A stretch of 64,000 bases of DNA from Rhizobium sp. SL42 (GTDB lineage: Bacteria > Pseudomonadota > Alphaproteobacteria > Rhizobiales > Rhizobiaceae), in the NCBI RefSeq assembly GCF_021729845.1, contig NZ_CP063397.1:1812001-1876000 (forward strand). The letters run 5' to 3'. A model generated the notes under the pieces. It ran no database searches. It worked only from the letters and a program-made list of their open reading frames with translations, and was not told the origin of the DNA. A program made the translations under genes and the position numbers. This document shows, piece after piece, positions 3,549-51,348 of the stretch; the first letter of the stretch is position 1, and each line of letters opens with the position of its first letter.

Positions 3549-3685
3549 GCAGTTTTCCGTCAGGAATTGCGTCTTGGAGGCAAATTCCAGGAAAAGTGCG
3601 TAAGCGGTTTTCCGTCAGGAATTGCGTGCTGGGAGCCAATTCGAGGAAAAGTGCGTAAGCGGTTTTCCGTTCGCAAAAACGCAAA
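3528..3685. repeat. 55-base tandem repeat, three copies (last one partial), palindromic core
   Basis: Units begin at 3528, 3583 and 3638, exactly 55 bases apart. Each has a GGAAAAGTGCGTAAGC core followed by GGTTTTCC (AGTTTTCC in copy 1), so GGAAAA and TTTTCC can pair as a short hairpin. Copies 1 and 2 also share the TTCCGTCAGGAATTGCG segment. The first copy overlaps the end of the HxlR-type gene. A related element occurs at 43741-43800. This resembles interspersed palindromic elements of rhizobial genomes. Confidence 0.8.
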
Positions 3686-4028
3686 ACCAGTTCCCGGCAA
3701 ATCCGACACACAAGACGATCGTCATGCTCGGCCTTGTGCCGAGCATCTGCCAAAGCCGGCCAAAGCCCGTAATTAGCAGATAAAAACAATGCAAAAAGCA
3801 GGACGCAGCAGACCCGCGGGACAAGCCCGAGGGTGACGTTCGAGAGCGCTGACGCACCGTTCGAAAAGAGGCGCCTCGCCGATACCACCCGCCTTTGCTA
3901 CACTTCCTGTATCGCCCGCTACACTTCCTGCACTGGCCGCGCCTGGGGCGCGGGCGCATCCTTGGTCTCAGCAGGTCAGGCCTTCGCGCCGGCCTGTCAT
4001 CACCTCAATCCGCCCAAGGAGACATGCC
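3549..4028. other. Gene-free stretch with repeats
   Basis: Besides the end of the 55-base repeats, it holds a perfect hairpin at 3724-3746 (ATGCTCGGC, 5-base loop, GCCGAGCAT). The sequence at 3820-3838 (GGACAAGCCCGAGGGTGACG) belongs to a palindrome family common in alphaproteobacterial intergenic DNA. Two near-identical CTACACTTCCTG segments lie at 3898-3930. No convincing coding frame was found. Confidence 0.6.
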
Positions 4029-4904
4029 ATGACTTCCCCTCACTCCTCCGTGCATCCCTCGCCATCGGCAGCCCCGATGCCGCCCGGCTCGCCCGCGGCC
4101 ACGGCTGATCTCGCCGCCGTCAAGGCGCGCCAGCAGGGCGCCTGGTCGTCCGGCGATTATGCTGTGATCGGCACCACGCTGCAGATCGTCGGTGAAAACC
4201 TGTGCGAGGCGCTTGACCTGCATGCCGGCAGCCGCGTGCTCGATGTCGCCGCCGGCAATGGCAATGCGACGCTCGCCGCCGCCCGCCGCTGGTGCGACGT
4301 CACCGCGACGGATTATGTGCCGGCGCTCCTGGAAAAGGCCAAGGCAAGGGCAAGAGCCGAAGGTCTCGACGTGACCTTCCAGACGGCCGATGCCGAGGCT
4401 TTGCCTTTTGCCGACGAGAGCTTCGATGTGGTTCTGTCGACATTCGGCGTGATGTTCACGCCGGATCAGGGCAAGGCGGCCGCCGAAATGCTGCGTGTGG
4501 TCAAGCCGGGTGGCCGCATCGGTCTTGCCAACTGGACGCCGGAAAGCATCATCGGCCAGCTGTTCGCCACACTCGGCCGGCATCTGCCACCGCCGGCCGG
4601 CGTCAAGTCTCCGGCGCTCTGGGGCACCCGGGCAAGGCTGTCGGAATTGTTCGAGGATGCGGAACGCATCGAAACCACCCAGCGCAGCTACACTTTCCGC
4701 TATCGCTCGCCGGCCCATTGGCTGGATATTTTCCGCACCTGGTACGGCCCGGTCCACAAGGCCTTTGCCAGCCTGCCGGATGATACGGCGCGTGCCGCCC
4801 TCGAACGCGACATCCTGGCCGTGATCAACGGCCACAACCGGGCCGAGGACGGCACGCTGGTGATGTCGAGCGACTATCTCGAGGTCATCGTCACCGCCCG
4901 CTGA
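4029..4904 (+). CDS. Class I SAM-dependent methyltransferase (UbiE/Methyltransf_11 type)
   Basis: 291 residues, RBS AAGGAGA just upstream. After a Pro/Ala-rich N-terminus of about 30 residues comes a Rossmann methyltransferase: motif I VLDVAAGNGNATL (about residues 71-83), the acidic TATDYVPAL strand, TADAEALPFADESFD (motif II region), and the LRVVKPGGRIGLANW post-motif. The YAVIGTTLQIVGENL start is typical of a subfamily of small-molecule methyltransferases in rhizobia. The substrate is unknown. It appears to be a single-gene unit. Confidence 0.85.
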   Translation: MTSPHSSVHPSPSAAPMPPGSPAATADLAAVKARQQGAWSSGDYAVIGTTLQIVGENLCEALDLHAGSRVLDVAAGNGNATLAAARRWCDVTATDYVPALLEKAKARARAEGLDVTFQTADAEALPFADESFDVVLSTFGVMFTPDQGKAAAEMLRVVKPGGRIGLANWTPESIIGQLFATLGRHLPPPAGVKSPALWGTRARLSELFEDAERIETTQRSYTFRYRSPAHWLDIFRTWYGPVHKAFASLPDDTARAALERDILAVINGHNRAEDGTLVMSSDYLEVIVTAR

Positions 4905-5125
4905 GGCGCCCGGCTTGCCGCAAATCGATCGAGACAGGATAGAGCCGTCGGAGCCTTCCGGCGGCTTCTGCGCGCCGCCCGCAGCCGCTGTGGCCCTGGC
5001 GGCCTTGGCCGCCTTGGCCGGCGCGTGAAGACCGCAAATACCCATCTTGACTTGCCGTCCGTCAGGGTCCATGTGCCCCTGATGGGTGCGCCGCAACACG
5101 TGCCACCCGAACCGAGGACAGGAAG

Positions 5126-14448: not shown

Positions 14449-15045
14449 CTAAAGTTGTGTGATCCATTCATGCCCAGGATACATCGCATCAAGCCAACAG
14501 CGCAGGTCAGCCTTTTCCTGATCGTCAAGCTTAGGCAAGGCAGCATGCAAGTCGTCCAAATCCTTGGCTCGAACGTGTTTTGCTTTAAACAACAGGGCAA
14601 GAGCAGGAGCGAGATAAGGAATTCCGCTCGGTGTTTCTCGAACCACAGTCGACCTGGGCAAACGGAAAGATGGATCGCGTTTGTAAATCCAGTTTTCTGG
14701 GGTTCCATGTTCGATCATCATGTCTACACGCCAGCAAAGGTTCGCCATATCGGCTCCCCACAATTGGGTAGTTTCTGGCCGAGGCCTAGTTTCTGGTGCA
14801 AGGTAGGTAAACGTGCCATTCTGGACTTCGAAGAAGTCCAACTCACGTAACTCTGAGCGAAAGAGATCGACATCTTCTGAGAGTATACAGAACTCGAGGT
14901 CTTCATGATCGCGGGTCTGGTGGCCGTGCCACAGGTCCAGTGCCCAGCCACCGACAACGTAGCAGGGTGAACTCTGATAGCAGAGGCGCTCGAAAAGCAG
15001 TCCCGGTGCCCAAGCATCCCAGGCATCATCTGGAATATGCTGCAT
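14449..15045 (-). CDS. AadB-like nucleotidyltransferase domain protein
   Basis: 198 residues from the ATG at 15045; an in-frame TTG at 15102 is possible but weaker. The segment YVVGGWALDLWHGHQTRDHEDLEF has the GGxAxDxxxG...RxHxDxE pattern of the Pol-beta-like nucleotidyltransferase group that includes aminoglycoside 2''-adenylyltransferases. The C-terminal half (RPKH-like helix KAKHVRAKDLDDLHAALPKL) is also seen in those proteins. Whether it modifies an antibiotic, a protein or tRNA is not known. Base composition is lower in GC than neighbours, suggesting acquisition. Confidence 0.7.
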   Translation of the reverse strand: MQHIPDDAWDAWAPGLLFERLCYQSSPCYVVGGWALDLWHGHQTRDHEDLEFCILSEDVDLFRSELRELDFFEVQNGTFTYLAPETRPRPETTQLWGADMANLCWRVDMMIEHGTPENWIYKRDPSFRLPRSTVVRETPSGIPYLAPALALLFKAKHVRAKDLDDLHAALPKLDDQEKADLRCWLDAMYPGHEWITQL

Positions 15046-15251
15046 CTCCGTTACCTGCCTCCGAATGGATGGGAACCGTAGCGTTTCCTCATGTTTGGCC
15101 AAGACCCTTGCTGGCTCGCAGACGACTACACCGTTCCATGAATCTAGCTTTCCGAATAGCTCCGAATGTCAATGTCCGCAAAGCGCCGACGGCCGCCATG
15201 CCATGGAAGCGCTAAAAGGCGACATCAGAATTGATGCCTGCACGTTCTGAG

Positions 15252-16879: not shown

Positions 16880-17398
16880 TTACAGTTTCTTGAGTAATTT
16901 CTCAAACGTCAAAGACACGAAAGGGAGCAGCGCGACAGTAGATATAAGATAAACAAAAAAGCTTCCCGTAAAGTATTCATTCGCGCCGAACAGGAAGTAC
17001 AGGGCGCCGCAGCGAGAAGAATCACATCGACTATCCGGGTAAATGTGGTTATATCCGAGGAAAAAAGCAATAAACAATCCAATCAATACCGCCAATGCTA
17101 CAGTTATAAAACTCGCAGATGGAGAAATAAGTCGCGAACCGAGATTAGATTCACTACTGCATCGCAAATATAACATAAATATTACTACAGATAATGAAGA
17201 TGAAAGCTGAAGCAGGTATACGATATTACGATTCGTCGGTTCATATAGAGCCGAAAATATGGCTGCAAAAGTAGAAGAAATAACGGACAGCGAACCTATC
17301 GTGACTCCGTCAAAATCCGATTTAGATCTTGTTTTGTTTCTTACATGCAGCAATGACGCCAAAAAAAGGAAGATAGTTACCGGTCCGACTGAAAGCAT
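16880..17398 (-). CDS. AT-rich multi-pass membrane protein, unrecognised
   Basis: 172 residues with about five membrane helices (residues 4-18, 32-50, 60-80, 92-115, 140-160) and a short loop with three cysteines (RCDSSRCG) that probably faces the periplasm. Codon use is strikingly AT-rich compared with all surrounding genes, the clearest compositional anomaly in the window, so recent transfer is likely. No homologous family is recognised. It stands alone with no associated integrase or transposase. Confidence 0.6.
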   Translation of the reverse strand: MLSVGPVTIFLFLASLLHVRNKTRSKSDFDGVTIGSLSVISSTFAAIFSALYEPTNRNIVYLLQLSSSLSVVIFMLYLRCSSESNLGSRLISPSASFITVALAVLIGLFIAFFLGYNHIYPDSRCDSSRCGALYFLFGANEYFTGSFFVYLISTVALLPFVSLTFEKLLKKL

Positions 17399-18035
17399 TT
17401 CATATTCTTCTACAATTAAAACAACCTAGCGACAGACTGATATTGATTCAACCTTGGGTCAATAAGTGCAAAGGCAGAATGTCAGATTTTGCAACTTATG
17501 TTCTGATCCCAAAATCTGGAGGTCAATTGGGTCTCAGGTCATAGCCTACCCGAAGTCGCTGTAATGAGGGTATAGGCTGCAACAGAAGAGTGTCTGCCCG
17601 AGGCGGCCCGGTGACCTGAGATCCAAAACGCAAAGACCACCACCATCATATGGGAGCGGAGAGACTATTATGTGTCGTTGGCTGCGGGGATTGCCTTCAA
17701 ATCTCTACAGCAAGCAAATGCAGGTCTCGGTGAAAACCTGCCCGAGCATGACGACAGACAGGGGCTGGATCATACCCCGTCCGTCATCCTCGCCACACCG
17801 GCCGTCCTCTTCGGGCTCATCACGCCGTCATCCTCGACCTCCACATCCACCGTCATCCTCGCGCTTGACCCGAGGACCTACCGAGTCCTGCGACAGGCGA
17901 AACATATCCGCATCCATCCGATCGGCGAACGCTGGAGCCCAGCTCTCCGGGAAAAGCGTGTGACCGACACAATCACCGCCTTCCGCAATCAGGCAAGCCA
18001 CCCTATAGCTCTGTACAGGACCAACGCCCACAGCC
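17399..18035. other. Gene-free stretch with repeated CGTCATCCTCG segments
   Basis: Three copies of CGTCATCCTCG occur at about 17780, 17827 and 17851, the last continuing into CTTGACCCGAGGA, a member of the palindrome family also seen at 3820. The first 150 bases are AT-rich, continuing the composition of the gene before. No credible gene was found. Confidence 0.5.
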
Positions 18036-43741: not shown

Positions 43742-43870
43742 AGAAATTCCAGCATAAGTGGGAACCGGTTTTGCGTGCGCAATTGCGAATGCAAAGACAC
43801 CGGCTGAAAGACCGCAGCTAAAAAATCACTGGCCTCGGGCCGGTCGTGGCCGGCTTCGCAAAAAAAATCA
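43738..43870. repeat. Palindromic intergenic element related to the repeat at 3528
   Basis: AGAAATTCCAGCATAAGTGG then GAACCGGTTTTGCG echo the AATTCCAGGAAAAGTG and GGTTTTCCG parts of the repeat at 3528-3685, and GCGCAATTGCG is a perfect palindrome (43777-43787). It overlaps the stop of the small gene by a few bases, as the element at 3528 does with its gene. Confidence 0.6.
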
Positions 43871-44416
43871 CCGCCCGGTAAACGGCAGGCATTCGGCCTC
43901 GGCCAGGAATTCGCGCGCCTCCGCCTCGAAGCTCGGCTGCGCCACCATGCTGCGCAACACCGCATAACCCGTCGTGCCGCGATGTTCGACCAGGATCGTC
44001 TGGGCCAGCGCCGGGATCGGCGTCTTGCGCAATTGCGCGATCTGCACCGGCGTCGCCAGAAGCACATCGACATCGCCGGCAACCGAGGTCCGGTCGTTCA
44101 TCGAGAACACCTCGTTGGAATCCTTGTCATACAGCGAGATCGACCAGAAGCTGCCGCTGCCCAGCGCCACCAGCGACAGCGGCTGCCGGCTGATGTCGAA
44201 ATGGCAGACCGCGACCCGCATATAGGGATCGAGGCTCGACAGCCCGGTTGCGTCCGGCTTGACCTCGAGCCGGTGGAAGACGAAAGGCGCGCCCTCCGCT
44301 ACCACCCGCGTATAGGCATCCTTGCCGGTAAAATGCGGAATGCCGAGAATGATGATGATATGCAGGAGCACCGCGCCGAAGACCCCGGTGATGACGGCGT
44401 AAAGCAGTCTACTCAT
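43868..44416 (-). CDS. DUF1254 family membrane protein
   Basis: 182 residues. One N-terminal membrane helix (LLYAVITGVFGAVLLHIIIIL) then a periplasmic domain with HFTGKDAYTRVVAEG, FVFHRLEVKP, FDISRQPLSLVALGSGSFWS and SISLYDKDSNEVFSMNDRT, the DUF1254 pattern. It overlaps the upstream DUF1214 gene by 8 bases; the two domains are often fused in other bacteria, so the products probably form one complex. Function unknown. Confidence 0.82.
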   Translation of the reverse strand: MSRLLYAVITGVFGAVLLHIIIILGIPHFTGKDAYTRVVAEGAPFVFHRLEVKPDATGLSSLDPYMRVAVCHFDISRQPLSLVALGSGSFWSISLYDKDSNEVFSMNDRTSVAGDVDVLLATPVQIAQLRKTPIPALAQTILVEHRGTTGYAVLRSMVAQPSFEAEAREFLAEAECLPFTGR

Positions 44417-44996
44417 GGCCGCACCCGAGCGTCTCGATCCCCGGCATGTCGAGGCCGATCAGCCCCGTCGAGCCGGCCGCCGGCGTGTCGAGCAGCGTCA
44501 GCACCAGCGAAAATGCGCCCGTATCCGGCAAAGCCAGCCAGTTGCCGGCCTTGGCCGTCGGCGAAATCGTCACCGAGAACGTGCCGTCGCGCTGGCGCAG
44601 AACGGTCTGCGAATTCAGCGACGTCGGCAGGTCGGCGCTTGAAACCAGCGGCAGGCCGTCGCCGTCTGCGGCATAGAGCGTCCACAGCCGTGCCGTCGGC
44701 GTGCGCCCGGACAGCTTGTAGGTGCAGGTGCCGGTCAGGCGCTGGCCGGCGTCGTCGGCGGACGCGGTAAAGGTCAGCCCCTCGGCCGAACCGTAGAGCA
44801 GCCGCCCGGCCTTGGCCCGATGCGCCTTGGCATAGGGATCGGCCTCGGCCGTCTGGGCGGCGGGAAAGGCCGACCACACCCCGATCCGGATCGCCCCGAA
44901 GCCGACAGAGGCATTCAGCGCCGACAGCGACGACAGGATGCCGCCGCCAAACGCGATGATCAGGGTAAGCGCAATGAGCAGGGGGACACGAAACAC
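44409..44996 (-). CDS. DUF1214 family protein
   Basis: 195 residues with an N-terminal signal or anchor (FRVPLLIALTLIIAFGGGIL). Residues 45-195 fit DUF1214: IGVWSAFPAAQTAEADPYAKA (conserved DPY), TCTYKLSGRTPTARLWTLYAAD, GTFSVTISPTAKAGNWLALP, and a final Gly/Cys segment. Same operon as the DUF1254 gene. A shared envelope role is likely. Confidence 0.85.
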   Translation of the reverse strand: MFRVPLLIALTLIIAFGGGILSSLSALNASVGFGAIRIGVWSAFPAAQTAEADPYAKAHRAKAGRLLYGSAEGLTFTASADDAGQRLTGTCTYKLSGRTPTARLWTLYAADGDGLPLVSSADLPTSLNSQTVLRQRDGTFSVTISPTAKAGNWLALPDTGAFSLVLTLLDTPAAGSTGLIGLDMPGIETLGCGHE

Positions 44997-45350
44997 GTCT
45001 CGTCAGATACCTTGTTCGACCTTGCCGGCGACCGCCGGACTTGGCGGCTAGCGGTATCACTGATTCGGCATCGGGAAAAGGCAAGCCGCAGATCCCGCCG
45101 CCGGCCATCTCGCCCCCCCGGGCCCGCCCCAAGCGCGCCCCAGGCCCGCCAGAGGCCCACCCCGAGAAGCCTATCCAGCACCTGGCCATCAAAAGCCCCG
45201 CCATCCCGCCACCGGCCGCCGCCATGCCGAGCAGCCCTGCGTGGCCCCCATGGCCCCCATGGCCCCCTCCATGGAACCGATGCCGGCGCGAACCGTTGTC
45301 CAGCCAGAGCAGCAAACACCGATACGACGAGAACCATGAGGAGAACGAAC
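44997..45350. other. Intergenic region with Pro/Trp-like low-complexity DNA
   Basis: Holds a 9-base tandem repeat TGGCCCCCA (three copies near 45241-45270) inside C-rich DNA. Open frames here on both strands are repetitive (Pro-rich or Gly/His-rich) and were not accepted. The divergent promoters for DUF1214 and DUF1236 genes should lie here. Confidence 0.5.
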
Positions 45351-45689
45351 ATGCGCAACAGGCTCATTCTGGCAACCGCCCTGGCCACCACCGCAACATT
45401 TCTGACGCTGTCCGGAACGGCCGGCGCCCAGGAAACCGTCATCATCCAGCAGGCGCCCGCGCCGGCGCCGCAGACCGTCGTCATCCCCGGCGAGGTCCGC
45501 ACCTATGTCATGGAGCAGCAGGTCCAGTCGGTGCCTTATGAAGGCGACGTGCTGATCGGCCGCGTCATCGACGATCCGGTCGAGCTCTACCCGATCGATG
45601 GTTATGACGGCTATTCCTACACCGTCGTCAACGAACGCCGCGTCATCGTCGACCCGCAGACCCGCGCCGTCGTCCAGATCCTCGACTGA
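45351..45689 (+). CDS. DUF1236 family exported protein
   Basis: 112 residues from the ATG at 45351, with GAGGAGAACG upstream. Signal peptide cleaved after GTAGA-Q (about residue 26), then a Gln/Pro-rich linker (VIIQQAPAPAPQTVVIP) and a single DUF1236 domain (EVRTYVMEQQVQSVPYEGDV to DPQTRAVVQILD). DUF1236 domains are small periplasmic modules, often repeated, in Rhizobiales. Function unknown. Confidence 0.85.
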   Translation: MRNRLILATALATTATFLTLSGTAGAQETVIIQQAPAPAPQTVVIPGEVRTYVMEQQVQSVPYEGDVLIGRVIDDPVELYPIDGYDGYSYTVVNERRVIVDPQTRAVVQILD

Positions 45690-45721
45690 CGCTCATCATC
45701 CCGAGGACGATCTGCCAGAAG

Positions 45722-45745
45722 CCCGGCGCCGCGCGCCGGGTTTTT
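45722..45745 (+). terminator. Rho-independent terminator of the DUF1236 gene
   Basis: 7-bp stem CCCGGCG / CGCCGGG with a 5-base loop followed by TTTTT, 33 bases after the stop. Confidence 0.85.
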
Positions 45746-45814
45746 GCGGTTAGCGGCCGCTGGTTATCCTTGAGACGAATGGCGTTTGAAGAACAGGACC
45801 CGCGCCGACCGGCG

Positions 45815-45878
45815 CTCACCAGCTGCCGGGCTCACCAGCTGCGAGGCTCTCCAGCTTACGGGCTCACCAGCTGCCGGA
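45815..45878. repeat. 16-base tandem repeat, four copies
   Basis: Units at 45815, 45831, 45847 and 45863 follow CTCACCAGCTGCCGGG, with 0, 3, 4 and 1 differences from that form. The unit at 45863 overlaps the end of the DUF2026 gene and supplies its stop codon (TCA on this strand). Confidence 0.85.
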
Positions 45879-46484
45879 AAGCGCATTGCCCGAGAGCGGG
45901 ATCTCCCGCAGCTTGCCGCGCGGATCTTTCCGCGGATCTTTCGACGAGATTGCGCTTGCCATATGTTTCGGCGAGCGGCGAAACCATTGCGCGGCCACGG
46001 TTGCGAGATCGCCGATCATCGCCTGGCCGCGCCATGCGGCAAACCGCCGGGCGCTGGCTTCAGGCTCGGACTGGTAGAAGAAATCGCCCGACTGGCCGAG
46101 CGCATTGATGTCATCCGCCATCGCTGAAAGCGGCTTCTGGAACATCTTCGACGGCAGCGCCAATTCCCGCGCGCTTTCCGAAAACGCCGGTGCCATGAAG
46201 TCGATCGCCCAGCCGTCCGCCTCAACCCAGCAATGGAAATTCTCCCCCGCCCCGGTCACATGCCCGTCGTCGCGGTGATCGGCAAACAGGATCAGCGTGC
46301 CCCCGAGATTATAGGCCGCAAGCCCGCTCTTCGGCACGGCATTGACCTTGAAATGCTGCTTGAGAATGAAGGCGCCGAAGGTGGCAAAATACATCGCCCC
46401 CACCGCCGGATCGGCATTTTCATTGACCAGCAGGCTGTTGATGACGCGGTAGATCCGCTGGTAGTCGCTCTGCTTGATCAACAT
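45864..46484 (-). CDS. DUF2026 family protein
   Basis: 206 residues from the ATG at 46484 (MLIKQSDYQRIYRVINSLL), with AGGTG upstream. DUF2026 pattern: ADPAVGAMYFATFGAFILKQHF, NLGGTLILFADHRDD, and ENFHCWVEADGWAIDFMAPAF. The Cys/His/Asp set in GAFILKQH.. and FHCW..GWAIDF resembles a papain or transglutaminase-like fold, but the activity is unknown. The last codons (LSGNALSGSW) come from the first unit of a tandem repeat, so C-terminal length may vary between strains. Confidence 0.8.
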   Translation of the reverse strand: MLIKQSDYQRIYRVINSLLVNENADPAVGAMYFATFGAFILKQHFKVNAVPKSGLAAYNLGGTLILFADHRDDGHVTGAGENFHCWVEADGWAIDFMAPAFSESARELALPSKMFQKPLSAMADDINALGQSGDFFYQSEPEASARRFAAWRGQAMIGDLATVAAQWFRRSPKHMASAISSKDPRKDPRGKLREIPLSGNALSGSW

Positions 46485-46701
46485 GGATGGCACCTGCACA
46501 TATGGGGGAGTTGGGAGTGCGCTGTCTGTAGGCGAGGGAGGCGCGGATGTAAACGGAGGAGGGGGAGGGAGTGGCGGCGTGTTGGCGAGGGCAGTCCACT
46601 TACGCTACGTTATTCGTGGGACTGGTTGCTGAAGCGCTAGCTGGTAGTTAAGTATTGGCGGTCGGCCCTTGCAGAAGCCGACCTGTAGGAGGCCCAACTC
46701 A

Positions 46702-47460
46702 GTGTCTGACGCATATCTCCGCCAAGTGCTGGCGAGGCTCCGAGTAGACACGGGCCCCAATTCGGCGGCTCGTGGGGTTCAGGTGAATTTGCGGCCCTCA
46801 CTGCAGCGTTGGGCTGGCCAGTATTTGGTCAGCATGGAACCGAGCGGCTCATTTGCCAAGGGTACGGCAATCCGTGGCGGCACCGACATTGACATCTTCG
46901 TCTCACTCTCTAGCCAAGTGACTGACAGCCTCGCGGTGATCTACAATACGCTGTTCAATCAACTGCTGAATGAGGGGTTCAGTCCGCGGCCACAGAATGT
47001 TTCAATCGGCATCAAGATCGGAACTTATTCAGTCGACGTTGTCCCTGCGCGCCGACAGGGGCCAACGGGTCAGTTTCACAGCCTCTATCGCCGCAAAGCT
47101 GAGAGCTGGACCCAGACCAATGTCATTAGCCACATCAACACGGTTCGGACCTCAGGCCGCGCCGAGGAGATCATGATCGTGAAAGCTTGGCGAGAGCAGA
47201 AGAGACTCACGTTCCCATCGTTCTACCTAGAGCTTGTCACGATCGAGGCATGCCGAGGCCGGAAGGTTGGTGACCTTTCGGAAAATGTCTGGGCGACGCT
47301 TGCATATATCCGCGACAACATTGCAGCGGCCGTTTTCATCGATCCTGCAAACACTAATAATAGGATCTCCGATGATCTGACCGCAGCCGAGAAGCAGACT
47401 CTTGCCAACGCGGCTGCTACCGCACGGCACGCCACCAACTGGAGCCAAATTGTAGTATGA
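46702..47460 (+). CDS. CD-NTase-like (2'-5' OAS/CCA class) nucleotidyltransferase
   Basis: 252 residues. The GTG at 46702 is the start because a strong AGGAGG lies 9 bases upstream. The nucleotidyltransferase core is complete: GS at 49-50 in EPSGSFAKGTAIRGGTDIDI, metal-binding Asp62 and Asp64, and the third acid Asp112 in YSVDVVPA. The helical half (about 150-250) resembles OAS1-C/CD-NTase proteins. Such enzymes make cyclic or linear oligonucleotide signals in CBASS and related defence, or transfer nucleotides to tRNA or toxin targets. It overlaps the following nuclease-fold gene by 4 bases. GC is lower than the flanks, so it is probably acquired. Confidence 0.8.
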   Translation: MSDAYLRQVLARLRVDTGPNSAARGVQVNLRPSLQRWAGQYLVSMEPSGSFAKGTAIRGGTDIDIFVSLSSQVTDSLAVIYNTLFNQLLNEGFSPRPQNVSIGIKIGTYSVDVVPARRQGPTGQFHSLYRRKAESWTQTNVISHINTVRTSGRAEEIMIVKAWREQKRLTFPSFYLELVTIEACRGRKVGDLSENVWATLAYIRDNIAAAVFIDPANTNNRISDDLTAAEKQTLANAAATARHATNWSQIVV

Positions 47461-48173
47461 GTTGGTCCCTTCCGATCCTTCTCGATGAGCTGAATGCGTC
47501 AGTGACTGCAGACCTGCAGCGTGCGCGTAAAACCCTCGGGCATCCAACTGATCTGGGGGATGCGACTGAAGAGATCTGGATTGAGCTTTTCAACAAGTAT
47601 CTTCCTCGCCGTTATCACGCTATCAAGGCAACGGTCGTGGATAGCAAAGGAACTTTCAGCGATCAAATTGACGTGGTCATTCACGATCGACAGTATACAC
47701 CACTTGTTTTCACCTTCAAAGACAAGCATGTCATTCCTGCCGAGAGCGTTTATGCTGTGTTCGAATCCAAGCAAGAGATGAACGCACACCACATTGCTTA
47801 CGCTCAGCAGAAGATTTCCTCCGTGCGCAGGCTTCACCGGACATCGCTCCCGATCCCCACTATCGACGGCACAAAGAGGGCAAAGGAGTTGACTCCGGTC
47901 TTGGGTGGAGTTTTGACCCTCAGTTGCAAATGGCGTCCGGTCTTCGGTGACACCATGCTTGGCTATCTTGAGAGTGGGCAGGGCGATAAGCGTCTCGACC
48001 TTGGCTGTGTCGCCGACTGCGGCAACCTCTGGGTCAATGAAAATGGTGGCTATTCCCTTGCTGAGGAAACGAAGCCAGTCACGCGTTTCCTTCTAGAGTT
48101 GATATCGAGACTGCAGGCGGTCGCGACAGTGCCTATGATCGACATGCGTGCCTACGCGGAAAAGCTGGAGTGA
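47457..48173 (+). CDS. DUF6602 protein with PD-(D/E)xK nuclease-like motif
   Basis: 238 residues, start overlapping the preceding stop (ATGA). DUF6602 layout: EEIWIELFNKYLPRRYHAI, then FSDQIDVVIHDRQYTPLVF with Asp72, and IPAESVYAVFESKQEMN with Glu96 and Glu103-x-Lys105. This spacing of D...E-x-K matches a PD-(D/E)xK nuclease active site, as in Holliday junction resolvase-like and restriction enzymes. Coupled to the nucleotidyltransferase, it is a candidate effector. There is no sensor domain such as SAVED in this chain, so the signal-sensing mode is unclear. Confidence 0.72.
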   Translation: MSWSLPILLDELNASVTADLQRARKTLGHPTDLGDATEEIWIELFNKYLPRRYHAIKATVVDSKGTFSDQIDVVIHDRQYTPLVFTFKDKHVIPAESVYAVFESKQEMNAHHIAYAQQKISSVRRLHRTSLPIPTIDGTKRAKELTPVLGGVLTLSCKWRPVFGDTMLGYLESGQGDKRLDLGCVADCGNLWVNENGGYSLAEETKPVTRFLLELISRLQAVATVPMIDMRAYAEKLE

Positions 48174-48371
48174 ATCGTAGGCTTATCTTTCTAGAACAAC
48201 AAATATGATAATTCAGGAAGGAGAATCGAACATGTCTCCTATCTTATTGATGCCCTTGGAGAGAGTCTGGATGCCATGCCCGATGGGCAGGGATTCGGCC
48301 CACCCCATCTTCACCCTTCCTTCGCCAATCCCTGATACACCGGGCCTTCCCACACTCCAGAAGGATTTCCG

Positions 48372-48890
48372 ATGAAGAGAATGCTCGTCCTCGCCATGGC
48401 GCTCGCCATCGCGCCCCTGTTCGCCCCGATGCTCGGCCCGATCCGCGCCGAAGCCGCCACGCTTGAGTTTCCGAGCGATGCGCCGATTGCCTCGGTGAGC
48501 ATTCCGGACGCCTGGGAGCCGAAGGAAACCATTTCGGGCATCGAGGCGACCTCGCCGGATGCGGCGATCTATTTCTCCATCGATGTCGCCTCCGATGCGA
48601 CGATGGACCAGGTGATCAACGATGCGATCAAGTTCTTGACCGACAACGGCGTGACGATCGACGAGACGACCAAGAGCGATTCCGGCGATGTCGAAATCAA
48701 CGGCATGACCTTCGGCAGCATCGAATTCGACGGCGAGGATGCCGATGGCCCGGTCGAGGTGTCGCTCGGCTTTGCCTCACCATCCGCAGGCAAGATGCTG
48801 GTCGTCACCTATTGGGGCACCAAGGAAACGCAAGGGGCTCACAGCAAGGACCTCGTCGCCATCCTGAAGTCGCTGAAGCCGGCCAACTGA
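48372..48890 (+). CDS. Exported protein of unknown function
   Basis: 172 residues from the ATG at 48372. Signal peptide MKRMLVLAMALAIAPLFAP with cleavage near RAEAA (about residue 28). The mature protein is an acidic single domain: FPSDAPIASVSIPDAWEP, IEATSPDAAIYFSIDVAS, VEINGMTFGSIEFDGED and KMLVVTYWGTKETQGAH. Its shape recalls PsbP/DUF1795-like stress proteins but no family is assigned. Periplasmic. Confidence 0.72.
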   Translation: MKRMLVLAMALAIAPLFAPMLGPIRAEAATLEFPSDAPIASVSIPDAWEPKETISGIEATSPDAAIYFSIDVASDATMDQVINDAIKFLTDNGVTIDETTKSDSGDVEINGMTFGSIEFDGEDADGPVEVSLGFASPSAGKMLVVTYWGTKETQGAHSKDLVAILKSLKPAN

Positions 48891-49098
48891 GCGGGCGCAA
48901 ACGACGCGCTCCATCGCGCTTGCCGGCGCTGCATCCGGGGAACGGCCCCTTGCCGTTCCCGCACCGGCTCCCCCTGCCTCTACATGGCCTCGCGGGCTCC
49001 GCCAAAATCCCCCTCGCCACCGCCTATCCCCCGCGCTATGTCTTGCCCGGGCCGGAAGACACGGCACAAGACATCATGCATCGGGAGGAGCAGGCATC

Positions 49099-50016
49099 AT
49101 GGGCAAGCGGATCATCTTTACCGGCGGCAGCGGCAAGGCCGGGCGCCATGTCGTGCCCTATCTGACCGGCCGCGGCCATGCGGTCCTCAATCTCGATCTC
49201 ACCCCGCTCGATTGCCCCGGCGTCAACACGCTGCTGACCGACCTCACCGACAGCGGCCAGGTGTTCAACGCGTTCTCCCAGCATTTCGGCTTTGACGGCT
49301 TCGACACCGGTGACGGCCCGGCCAAGGTCGATGCGGTGGTGCATTTCGCCGCCGTGCCGCGCATCCTGATGAAGCCGGACAACACCACCTTCGCCACCAA
49401 TACCGTCTCGACCTACAATGTCATCGAGGCGGCGGTGAAGCTCGGCATCCGCAAGGTGATCATCGCCTCCAGCGAAACCACCTACGGCGTCTGTTTTGCC
49501 GAAGGCGACAAGGACTATCACCAGTTCCCGCTGACCGAGGACTATGATGTCGATCCGATGGACAGCTACGGCCTGTCCAAGGTGGTCAACGAAAAGACGG
49601 CCCGCGCCTTTGCCATGCGCACCGGCGCCGACATCTATGCGCTCAGGATCGGCAATGTCATTTCGCCCGAGGATTATGCCAATTTCCCCGGCTTCCTCGC
49701 CGATCCGCCCAGCCGCAAGCGCAATGCCTGGAGCTATATCGACGCCCGCGACCTCGGCCAGATCGTCGATCTCTGCGTGATGAAGGATGGCCTCGGCTTC
49801 CAGGTGTTCAACGCCGTCAACGACACGATCACGGCAAACGAACCGACCCGCGATTTCCTCGGCAAATGGGCGCCCAATACCCCGATCACCAGCGATCTCG
49901 CCAACGATCTGGATGGTTATGCAGCGCCGCTGTCGAACGCCAAGATCCGCACCGTGCTCGGCTTTCGCGAACAGCATAACTGGCGCGACGAACTGCCGGA
50001 CGGCTCGATGGACTGA
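49099..50016 (+). CDS. NAD(P)-dependent epimerase/dehydratase (extended SDR)
   Basis: 305 residues. Extended short-chain dehydrogenase fold: IFTGGSGKAGRHVVPYL (dinucleotide-binding GGxGxxG), ASSETTYGV, and the catalytic pair Tyr-x3-Lys in DSYGLSKVVNE (about residue 157-161). SYIDARDLGQIVDLCV is typical of sugar epimerase/dehydratase members. The substrate is likely a sugar or sugar acid, but not determined. Cytoplasmic, single gene. Confidence 0.87.
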   Translation: MGKRIIFTGGSGKAGRHVVPYLTGRGHAVLNLDLTPLDCPGVNTLLTDLTDSGQVFNAFSQHFGFDGFDTGDGPAKVDAVVHFAAVPRILMKPDNTTFATNTVSTYNVIEAAVKLGIRKVIIASSETTYGVCFAEGDKDYHQFPLTEDYDVDPMDSYGLSKVVNEKTARAFAMRTGADIYALRIGNVISPEDYANFPGFLADPPSRKRNAWSYIDARDLGQIVDLCVMKDGLGFQVFNAVNDTITANEPTRDFLGKWAPNTPITSDLANDLDGYAAPLSNAKIRTVLGFREQHNWRDELPDGSMD

Positions 50017-50113
50017 GGGAGCGGCCGGCTTCGGCAAACGACAAATCAGGGCTGCGCCTTTCGGCCCAGTCCTGATCGCTCGTTTGCCTGATGTCAGGCC
50101 TCATTTTCTGGCC

Positions 50114-50545
50114 TCACTGGCAAGGTGTCAGTCCGCCCGGATTGACGACCGCTGCGATGCCGACATGGCTGATCGTCGGGTCGTTGCGTGCCTGGAAGCA
50201 ATAGACGTCCTGCGCGTCGGGTGCGGCAACGATGCACGAATTGAAGCCGGCCGGCACGACATAGTTGTTCAGGCCGTTGATCGAGAACACGGTTGCGTCC
50301 CCGGCCGGATGCGGCACCGGATGTTTGGACAGCAGGATGGCGTTCTGCGGCGGGTTGACGTCGAGCGGCGTGAAGATGGCGCAGTTCGGCGAAAAGGCCA
50401 TCTGTGCAGTCGCGGGGGTCGAGCATGCCGCAAGGGCGGCGACGACGATGGCCATGGCCGCCTTTGCCCGCGATGCGGGCGCCGGCTGCGGCCCGTTCCG
50501 GCCCTGCTGCGGCGCTGCGTGTGTGCTTTGGTTCTGAATGTTCAT
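50114..50545 (-). CDS. Small exported protein, third gene of paralogue operon
   Basis: 143 residues from the ATG at 50545, with GAGGAAC upstream. A long polar N-terminus is followed by a hydrophobic stretch (AAMAIVVAALAACSTPATAQ) that could be a lipoprotein signal (Cys41) or a type I signal ending at TAQ. The mature part is beta-rich (FSINGLNNYVVPAGFNSC, YCFQARNDPTISHVG) with four cysteines. No family known. It lies 83 bases downstream of two related genes and should share their transcript. Confidence 0.6.
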   Translation of the reverse strand: MNIQNQSTHAAPQQGRNGPQPAPASRAKAAMAIVVAALAACSTPATAQMAFSPNCAIFTPLDVNPPQNAILLSKHPVPHPAGDATVFSINGLNNYVVPAGFNSCIVAAPDAQDVYCFQARNDPTISHVGIAAVVNPGGLTPCQ

Positions 50546-50628
50546 GGTGATGTTCCTCAAGTTGGTTTGACATCGGGGTGAATGATCAAGGTACTGAAAG
50601 TTCTGGAATTTCCGCATGCTGGCTGGTT

Positions 50629-51348
50629 CTACGGCCCTCCTTTCGTCGAGAATGTGCCATTGGCGTTGTAGGTCGCGGTGATGCTGGCAAAGCCGGTGGT
50701 GAAGTCGCAGCGCGCAGACAGGCTCTCGTCATAGGCAATGACGTTTCCCGTCGGCTCGAAGCCGATCTTGACGAAATAGACCGGCTGCGGCGCGCAAGCC
50801 GTCGTCATGTTGGGCGTCGGCGCGACGAAGCTCGACAGCACGATGTTCTGCCCGCCGGTCAGCGCTGCCACGCCGCAGAAAAGCTCCGGCATCGGCGCCG
50901 GCGTAAAGGGTGGCACGGCGATGCCGAAACTGCCGGCCGCAAGTCCTGCCTGATAGGCCGGCGCCGAAAGCCCGAGGGGGCTGAGCGCAAGCATGGTGCA
51001 ATTGGCGGGGCTTGCTCCTTGCACGCCGGTCGACAGCGCGATCGGCTGGGCAGCCGCCGTACTCGTCACCAGATATTGCGTCGCAGCGGGCTGGATCAGC
51101 GCGTTGAACTGCGGTGGCGGCAAGGGCGCCATGGTGCTGACCGCGCCGGCATAGACCTGGGTGTCGAAGGAAAAGCTGATCTGCGCACCCGACATGCCAT
51201 AGTTGCCAAGGCTTTGGCAGCCGAGGCTGCTGGCGAGGATCTGGCTGGCGGCGGCCGCCGGCTGGAACCGAGCCTGCTTCTGGAAGACGAAGAAATACTG
51301 CGTGTTCTGCGACAGGTTCCGCACGATGATCTGGTAGGAACTGGCCAT
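50629..51348 (-). CDS. Unrecognised all-beta protein, paralogue 1
   Basis: 239 residues, RBS AGGAG. No signal peptide. It shares with the upstream neighbour an N-terminal YQIIVRNLSQNTQYFFVFQK (NVKNFEPQTQNFYFFQQP in paralogue 2), a QSLGNYGMSGAQISFSFDTQVYAG core, a middle LGLSAPAYQAG.. and a C-terminal RCDFTTGFASITATYNANGT. The two are clear paralogues. Strand-rich composition suggests a beta-sandwich. Function unknown; a role in extracellular recognition or stress would be guesswork. Confidence 0.6.
   Translation of the reverse strand: MASSYQIIVRNLSQNTQYFFVFQKQARFQPAAAASQILASSLGCQSLGNYGMSGAQISFSFDTQVYAGAVSTMAPLPPPQFNALIQPAATQYLVTSTAAAQPIALSTGVQGASPANCTMLALSPLGLSAPAYQAGLAAGSFGIAVPPFTPAPMPELFCGVAALTGGQNIVLSSFVAPTPNMTTACAPQPVYFVKIGFEPTGNVIAYDESLSARCDFTTGFASITATYNANGTFSTKGGP

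Follow-up and report, generated by a model that had tools for sequence, protein, structure and literature searches.

A compact CD-NTase gene overlapping nucC as a probable type I CBASS operon in Rhizobium sp. SL42

Two overlapping genes in Rhizobium sp. SL42 encode a nucleotidyltransferase and a protein of the DUF6602 family, and they raise the question of whether such a pair is an anti-phage system, another kind of signalling or toxin-like pair, or a housekeeping enzyme lying beside a nuclease gene by chance. The pair, referred to here as the cassette, occupies 1.47 kb (46702..48173) of the + strand in a 64,000-nucleotide stretch of DNA, the window, and both reading frames are intact (Table 1). 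An initial annotation of the window had listed the two frames, the nucleotidyltransferase residues, a D...E-x-K spacing in the downstream protein, a 4-base overlap, an AGGAGG motif and a low GC content, and all of these were confirmed. Papers are cited by PMC number.

Table 1. Positions of the cassette features in the window
Feature	Coordinates	Strand	Details
Compact CD-NTase (CBASS oligonucleotide cyclase)	46702..47460	+	252 aa, GTG start, TGA stop
NucC DNA endonuclease effector	47457..48173	+	238 aa, ATG start; PADLOC PDLC00745, PDB and Pfam matches
AGGAGG ribosome-binding site	46687..46692	+	9 nt 5' of the cyclase GTG; read from sequence
ATGA stop/start overlap of cyclase and nucC	47457..47460	+	Read from sequence
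Insert extent	46569..48302		blastn of window 45501-50100 against the G046, G050 and G006 loci

The cassette and its chromosomal site

The ATGA arrangement is likely to couple translation of the cyclase gene to that of nucC. The cyclase frame is also open from a TTG at 46669, which would give a protein of 263 aa; the GTG start is favoured over this upstream codon because the PADLOC model and most of the listed homologues begin there. A pattern scan returned three promoter-like sites (1.1 +/- 1.2 expected), all of them intragenic and one on the opposite strand, and no terminator.

The GC content of the cassette is 54.6%, compared with 62.8% for the whole window. When segments of cassette length were slid along the window, 17 of 626 were equally low in GC; five of these overlap the cassette itself, and the remaining 12 lie at 16.0-18.6 kb. 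Moreover, GC at third codon positions is 60-64% in the cassette genes and 78-83% in three flanking genes. The lowest GC of the window (48%) is found at 17001-18000, where a minus-strand ORF at 16880-17670 encodes a 172-aa membrane-like protein.

By blastn, both flanks of the insert are conserved in G046, a genome of the same genus, but the inside is not. In G046, both flanks lie on one contig and enclose a different insert of 2.5 kb with genes for a baeRF-family protein, a histidine kinase, and a response regulator. The left flank is found mostly on a separate contig in G050 and G006, and that contig ends at this point; beside the right flank, G050 carries an AAA/OLD-TOPRIM protein (PADLOC Old 1.6e-29), and G006 carries a Beta protein (PADLOC beta 3.1e-42) and an ImmA/IrrE peptidase (PADLOC capP 9e-29). 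Three other species of the genus thus carry other genes at the site (loci L077, L078, and L081), defence-like in two of them, and the two flanks were found together in none of the other genomes among the 60 searched. On this sequence comparison, the cassette is an insert of low GC in a place where other species have other cargo. As to the defence-island setting raised in the initial annotation, defence-like neighbours occur around some relatives and at the same site in two sister species, but not in the window, where none of the seven genes around the cassette (43868-51348) matches a PADLOC model; the three nearest encode a DUF2026 protein, a 172-aa protein, and an epimerase-family protein. 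Carriage on a mobile element was also considered and rejected, with no integrase or transposase apparent by eye among the ORFs examined.

The cyclase and its effector

The upstream gene product matches the PADLOC CBASS cyclase model PDLC00803 with a score of 288.5 bits (E 1.2e-86). Its scores are too low for both NCBIfam CBASS cyclase equivalog models (62.5 and 49.6 bits, cut-off 200) and for Pfam SMODS (24.2, cut-off 26.5). The PADLOC matches of both cassette proteins are nearly full length, and both proteins match solved CBASS proteins. In a 30-sequence alignment, residues S48-G49-S50, D62, D64, and D112 (numbered from the GTG) are invariant, and the XGSX motif of the cyclase reads SGSF. Among solved structures, CdnD of Pseudomonas aeruginosa ATCC27853 (PaCdnD; PDB 6p82/6p8j/6p8u) gives the highest structural Z, 23.4, at 25% identity, and the title of 6p8j names D62N/D64N, the same residue numbers as in the window cyclase. 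CdnB, CdnG, and other CdnD entries lie within 1 Z of PaCdnD at 13-19% identity, so that by structural (VIA) Z PaCdnD, CdnB, and CdnG are tied, with CdnC lower. PaCdnD differs in being about 50 residues longer and was solved with a HORMA partner (6p8u). The predicted fold of the window cyclase is complete, aligning with PaCdnD over the range 1-252 (245 residues at 2.5 A), and Foldseek ranks 1-32 for the predicted model are all CD-NTases. Judged by profile matches, conserved residues, and predicted structure, the upstream gene encodes a complete CD-NTase.

Next to no credence can be given to the view that this protein has a housekeeping role, such as tRNA CCA addition, and that its gene lies beside a nuclease gene by chance. 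The archaeal CCA enzyme family TIGR03671 does match, but weakly, at 30.5 bits against a cut-off of 281.3 and against the far higher score of the CBASS cyclase model; likewise, the fold is shared, but archaeal CCA enzymes first appear at Foldseek rank 38, interspersed with more CD-NTases, and the pairing with NucC is conserved. A CCA-adding or housekeeping identity was rejected on this profile and Foldseek evidence. Homologues of 208-225 aa were considered as a truncated form of the cyclase; this was also rejected because most of them begin at or near MEPSGS and share the C terminus, and they are most likely start-codon calls. Elsewhere in the window, a minus-strand ORF of 217 aa (14449-15102) resembles, by eye, small-molecule nucleotidyltransferases (VGGWALDLWHGHQTRDHEDLEF).

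The downstream protein looked unknown because Pfam assigns it to DUF6602 (3.8e-30), a term that does not occur in the literature searched. The PADLOC NucC model PDLC00745, however, covers residues 2-237 (1.7e-95). There are also matches to five distinct PDB sequences, four of them named NucC; the best is 6q1h ('Bacterial protein ORF C62'; 3.3e-76), and NucC of E. coli MS115-1 (6p7o) aligns over residues 2-235 (5.1e-71). In particular, D72, E103, and K105 align with D73, E104, and K106 of E. coli NucC, which we take to be its catalytic residues, and R52, Y80, and T224 align with R53, Y81, and T226, presumably the pocket residues that contact cyclic triadenylate (cA3). By these matches, the DUF6602 protein of the window is NucC, a known CBASS effector. 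The initial annotation had offered it as either effector or substrate of the nucleotidyltransferase; the former role accords with its identity as a NucC nuclease, and no support was found for the latter.

NucC trimers are described as binding cAAA in an allosteric pocket and pairing into DNA-cutting hexamers (PMC10419184), and half-maximal activation of a CRISPR-linked NucC takes about 100 pM cA3 (PMC8682760). Because NucC binds cA3 in a pocket of its own, a SAVED domain is not needed; the earlier expectation of a sensor domain of this kind therefore falls away, and the layout is not anomalous for CBASS. NucC is, moreover, a cA3-activated effector in both CBASS and type III CRISPR, and this, together with the score of its partner as a CBASS cyclase and the CD-NTases that head the fold search, makes it extremely unlikely that the DUF6602 protein is a target modified by the cyclase within a toxin-antitoxin-like pair or a signalling pair unrelated to defence, an idea that draws on the overlap of the two genes and on the nucleotidyltransferase that one of them encodes. 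The same genome also encodes another DUF6602 protein, 315 aa long (G000:C1:1441969-1442916; minus strand at 3970-4917 of locus L085). Over its first 189 residues it shares 29% identity with the window NucC, and it retains the D and E-x-K; no CD-NTase is apparent beside its gene in that locus, and it appears to be a lone NucC-like nuclease.

Assignment to type I CBASS and proposed working

The proposal of the initial annotation that a CD-NTase and a PD-(D/E)xK effector share one operon, most likely for defence, was upheld. Its remark that the pair does not match a standard CBASS layout was not, as cyclase plus effector is the composition given for type I CBASS (PMC10419184, PMC9122588). Neither HORMA (Cap7) nor TRIP13 (Cap6), which mark type III CBASS, was found in the operon or among its seven neighbours, and the E1/E2 (Cap2) and JAB (Cap3) genes are likewise missing from these neighbours; between the cyclase gene and nucC, the 4-base overlap leaves no room for any gene. 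With a probability of roughly 0.9, the cassette is therefore a type I CBASS anti-phage operon in which a compact CD-NTase is paired with NucC as effector.

Since HORMA and TRIP13 are absent from the locus, either the cyclase itself or a factor encoded elsewhere must do the sensing. It has been suggested that type I systems, which encode only cyclase and effector, rely on innate sensing by the cyclase (PMC9122588), and in a type I-B CBASS of two genes the cyclase CdnE03 is activated by phage RNA that binds a positive surface (PMC10686824). In the proposed working, a product of phage infection, thought to be nucleic acid, would directly activate the window cyclase, which would join three ATP molecules into cA3. 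This product is proposed because cA3 is the known ligand of NucC, the motif is SGSF, and the cyclase is akin to CdnC and PaCdnD. The cA3 would then fill the pocket of NucC trimers, which would form hexamers and cleave double-stranded DNA, the host chromosome included, and cell death would precede phage maturation. The NucC steps are established for homologues about 50% identical and are carried over to the window NucC by this likeness.

The same type I system might instead make another trinucleotide or a mixed product and pair it with a NucC of shifted specificity, a variant that overlaps the main reading and that we consider unlikely. Even related CD-NTases can differ in product specificity (PMC13424991), and no characterised enzyme is close to the compact group, the window cyclase being 25-28% identical to five type III cyclases. 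However, SGSF is nearer to the SGSY, SGSL, and TGSY motifs of cA3 makers than to the QGSI of cAAG makers, and a CD-NTase with the motif SGSY makes cA3 that activates NucC (PMC13424991); activation of NucC by cA3 is also reported in PMC8682760. The match of R52, Y80, and T224 to the presumed cA3 contacts of E. coli NucC would also fit cA3 as the ligand.

Several known systems share parts of this arrangement. The type I pairs CdnG-Cap5 (PMC8568899) and CdnE03-Cap15 (PMC10686824) also consist of two genes, with sensing thought to lie in the cyclase, but their effectors are a SAVED-nuclease or membrane protein rather than a NucC with its own cA3 pocket. NucC of type III CRISPR systems (Vibrio metoecus, PMC8682760; Serratia) belongs to the same effector family, and the window NucC matches the type III CRISPR-associated family members 6uxf (6e-65) and 7zgv (7.1e-39); there, cA3 comes from Cas10 (PMC8682760), whereas in the window a CD-NTase gene is coupled to nucC by the 4-base overlap. 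No characterised two-gene cyclase-NucC CBASS was found in the literature searched, which does not prove that there is none. The DUF6602 finding thus resolves into an immune system of a known kind. Less ordinary are the unusually small cyclase and the lack of helper genes beside it, which make for a very small NucC-based layout, two genes in 1.47 kb, whose cyclase is missed by standard cyclase models.

Compact cyclases, their type III relatives, and their distribution

In a 45-row cyclase tree, all 25 compact cyclases fall on one side of a branch with support 100/99, beside the type III CdnC group; the root of this tree, at the midpoint, is just a drawing aid, and the tree has long branches that meet, with long rows for Deinococcus and Calothrix. 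Compact cyclases are mostly 250-255 aa. The window protein is shorter than the 321 aa of five type III relatives; compared with Citrobacter CdnC, to which it is identical at 62 of 252 positions, it lacks 20 residues after position 206, 14 after position 246, and smaller pieces. The five type III loci compared lie on plasmids of Citrobacter, Acetobacter, Rhizobium, Burkholderia, and Thauera, and we take the E. coli MS115-1 system, with CdnC, HORMA, Trip13, and NucC, to be of the same type. Like the cassette, type III systems place cyclase and NucC in one operon, with a NucC 50-54% identical to that of the window and a cyclase that belongs to the same superfamily as the window enzyme and shares its catalytic residues. 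Their gene order in the five loci is cyclase, Cap7 or a small hypothetical protein, Cap6 or an ATPase, and NucC, which leaves an estimated 1.5-1.6 kb between cyclase and NucC in all five, and a WYL or HTH/ImmA-IrrE regulator lies upstream in four. The window, in contrast, has no Cap7 or Cap6 between its genes and no such regulator adjoining; in 19 compact loci, the estimated distance from cyclase stop to NucC start is -4 to +35 bp, and by its annotated start L040 has 67 bp. Neighbouring cyclase and NucC genes with nothing between them are not confined to the compact group, as two cyclases from another branch (L026 and L027; ORFs of 299 and 337 aa) each have NucC directly downstream.

The compact cyclases are also basic. 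Their median pI is 9.4 in the 25 rows, compared with 6.3 in the five type III CdnC rows and 6.1 in 15 other cyclases, two of which (L017 and L021) are as basic as the compact rows; exceptions within the compact group are Caballeronia (7.0) and Deinococcus (6.8). We tentatively suggest that the compact cyclases may be a streamlined lineage beside the HORMA-controlled CdnC, one that would do without the HORMA/TRIP13 checkpoint, sense phage nucleic acid directly, and be wired to an adjacent or overlapping nucC. Direct sensing is proposed because of the basic pI, overall charge being weak evidence, and streamlining is consistent with most of the residues missing relative to CdnC falling in the two pieces after 206 and 246. 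If so, two related systems would use the same effector, one with and one without a checkpoint. The type III relatives are a natural comparison for how a suicide nuclease stays silent without HORMA and TRIP13, and this comparison also bears on the trigger sensed by type I cyclases, which to our knowledge has been identified for few enzymes.

Homologues of the two genes mostly occur side by side. NucC lies directly downstream of the cyclase in all eight named-genome loci; in L003 the NucC is interrupted by a transposase, and in L007 the cyclase is cut by a contig end. It is also adjacent in both further genomes from a 398-genome phylum search (the window's own excluded). On plasmids, NucC is directly downstream in 19 of 23 records among the matches listed, 10 by sequence and 9 by coordinates; these 23, with at least 30% identity, come from 40 listed matches of 68, and the 17 below 28% were left out. 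The independent plasmid cases number fewer than 19 because near-identical strains recur among the records (three R. leguminosarum Ta-type and three R. leguminosarum at 54.9% identity). Among these 19 plasmid records, NucC is split by IS21 in Sinorhizobium chiapasense, and the locus of Sphingomonas changnyeongensis carries a frameshift. The closer a cyclase is in identity to that of the window, the closer its NucC tends to be as well (Spearman 0.66, n = 19, shared ancestry included). The four plasmid cyclases without an adjacent NucC, among the matches listed, are those of Thioclava, where the cyclase is cut off by a neighbouring cluster, Deinococcus, and two distant Calothrix. In the Deinococcus taeanensis plasmid (L039), an apparently intact compact cyclase of 38% identity lies at 3589-4383, with no NucC or other recognised effector adjoining it.

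The system is rare: in the phylum search, 3 of 398 genomes, the window's own included, have a match at E <= 1e-20, and among 100 relatives the compact type occurs only in the window's genome and as a remnant in G046. Phage carriage was rejected, as no match was found in 50,697 phage records and no relative in a viral-contig scan.

Decayed compact copies do occur (L038, L012, and L034, plus the stop in L033), and of the four genes of a type III system the window has just two. Even so, it is very unlikely that the cassette is a non-working remnant of a type III system that lost HORMA and TRIP13: both genes are intact with every catalytic residue present, the compact cyclases form their own supported group of mostly uniform length, and the two-gene layout is common to 19 paired loci. 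Both insertion cases, the transposase in L003 and the IS21 copy, break the nuclease and not the cyclase, which in these two instances would fit a costly effector.

Some of these copies deserve separate mention. L033 (G633:C1), in one of the two further genomes, has an in-frame TAG inside the compact cyclase with a NucC gene beside it, and is either a decayed copy or from an organism that reads TAG as a residue. On the Sinorhizobium chiapasense plasmid (L046; 824-3075 and 4001-8071), the IS21-split NucC lies beside a full-length compact cyclase, and ThiF-family and Mov34/JAB genes (Cap2/Cap3-like or Bil-like) are found just upstream on the opposite strand. In the G046 remnant (L012/L082, at the end of contig G046:C321), cyclase residues 75-202 run into NucC from residue 60 onwards, the two parts being in different frames, as after an internal deletion.
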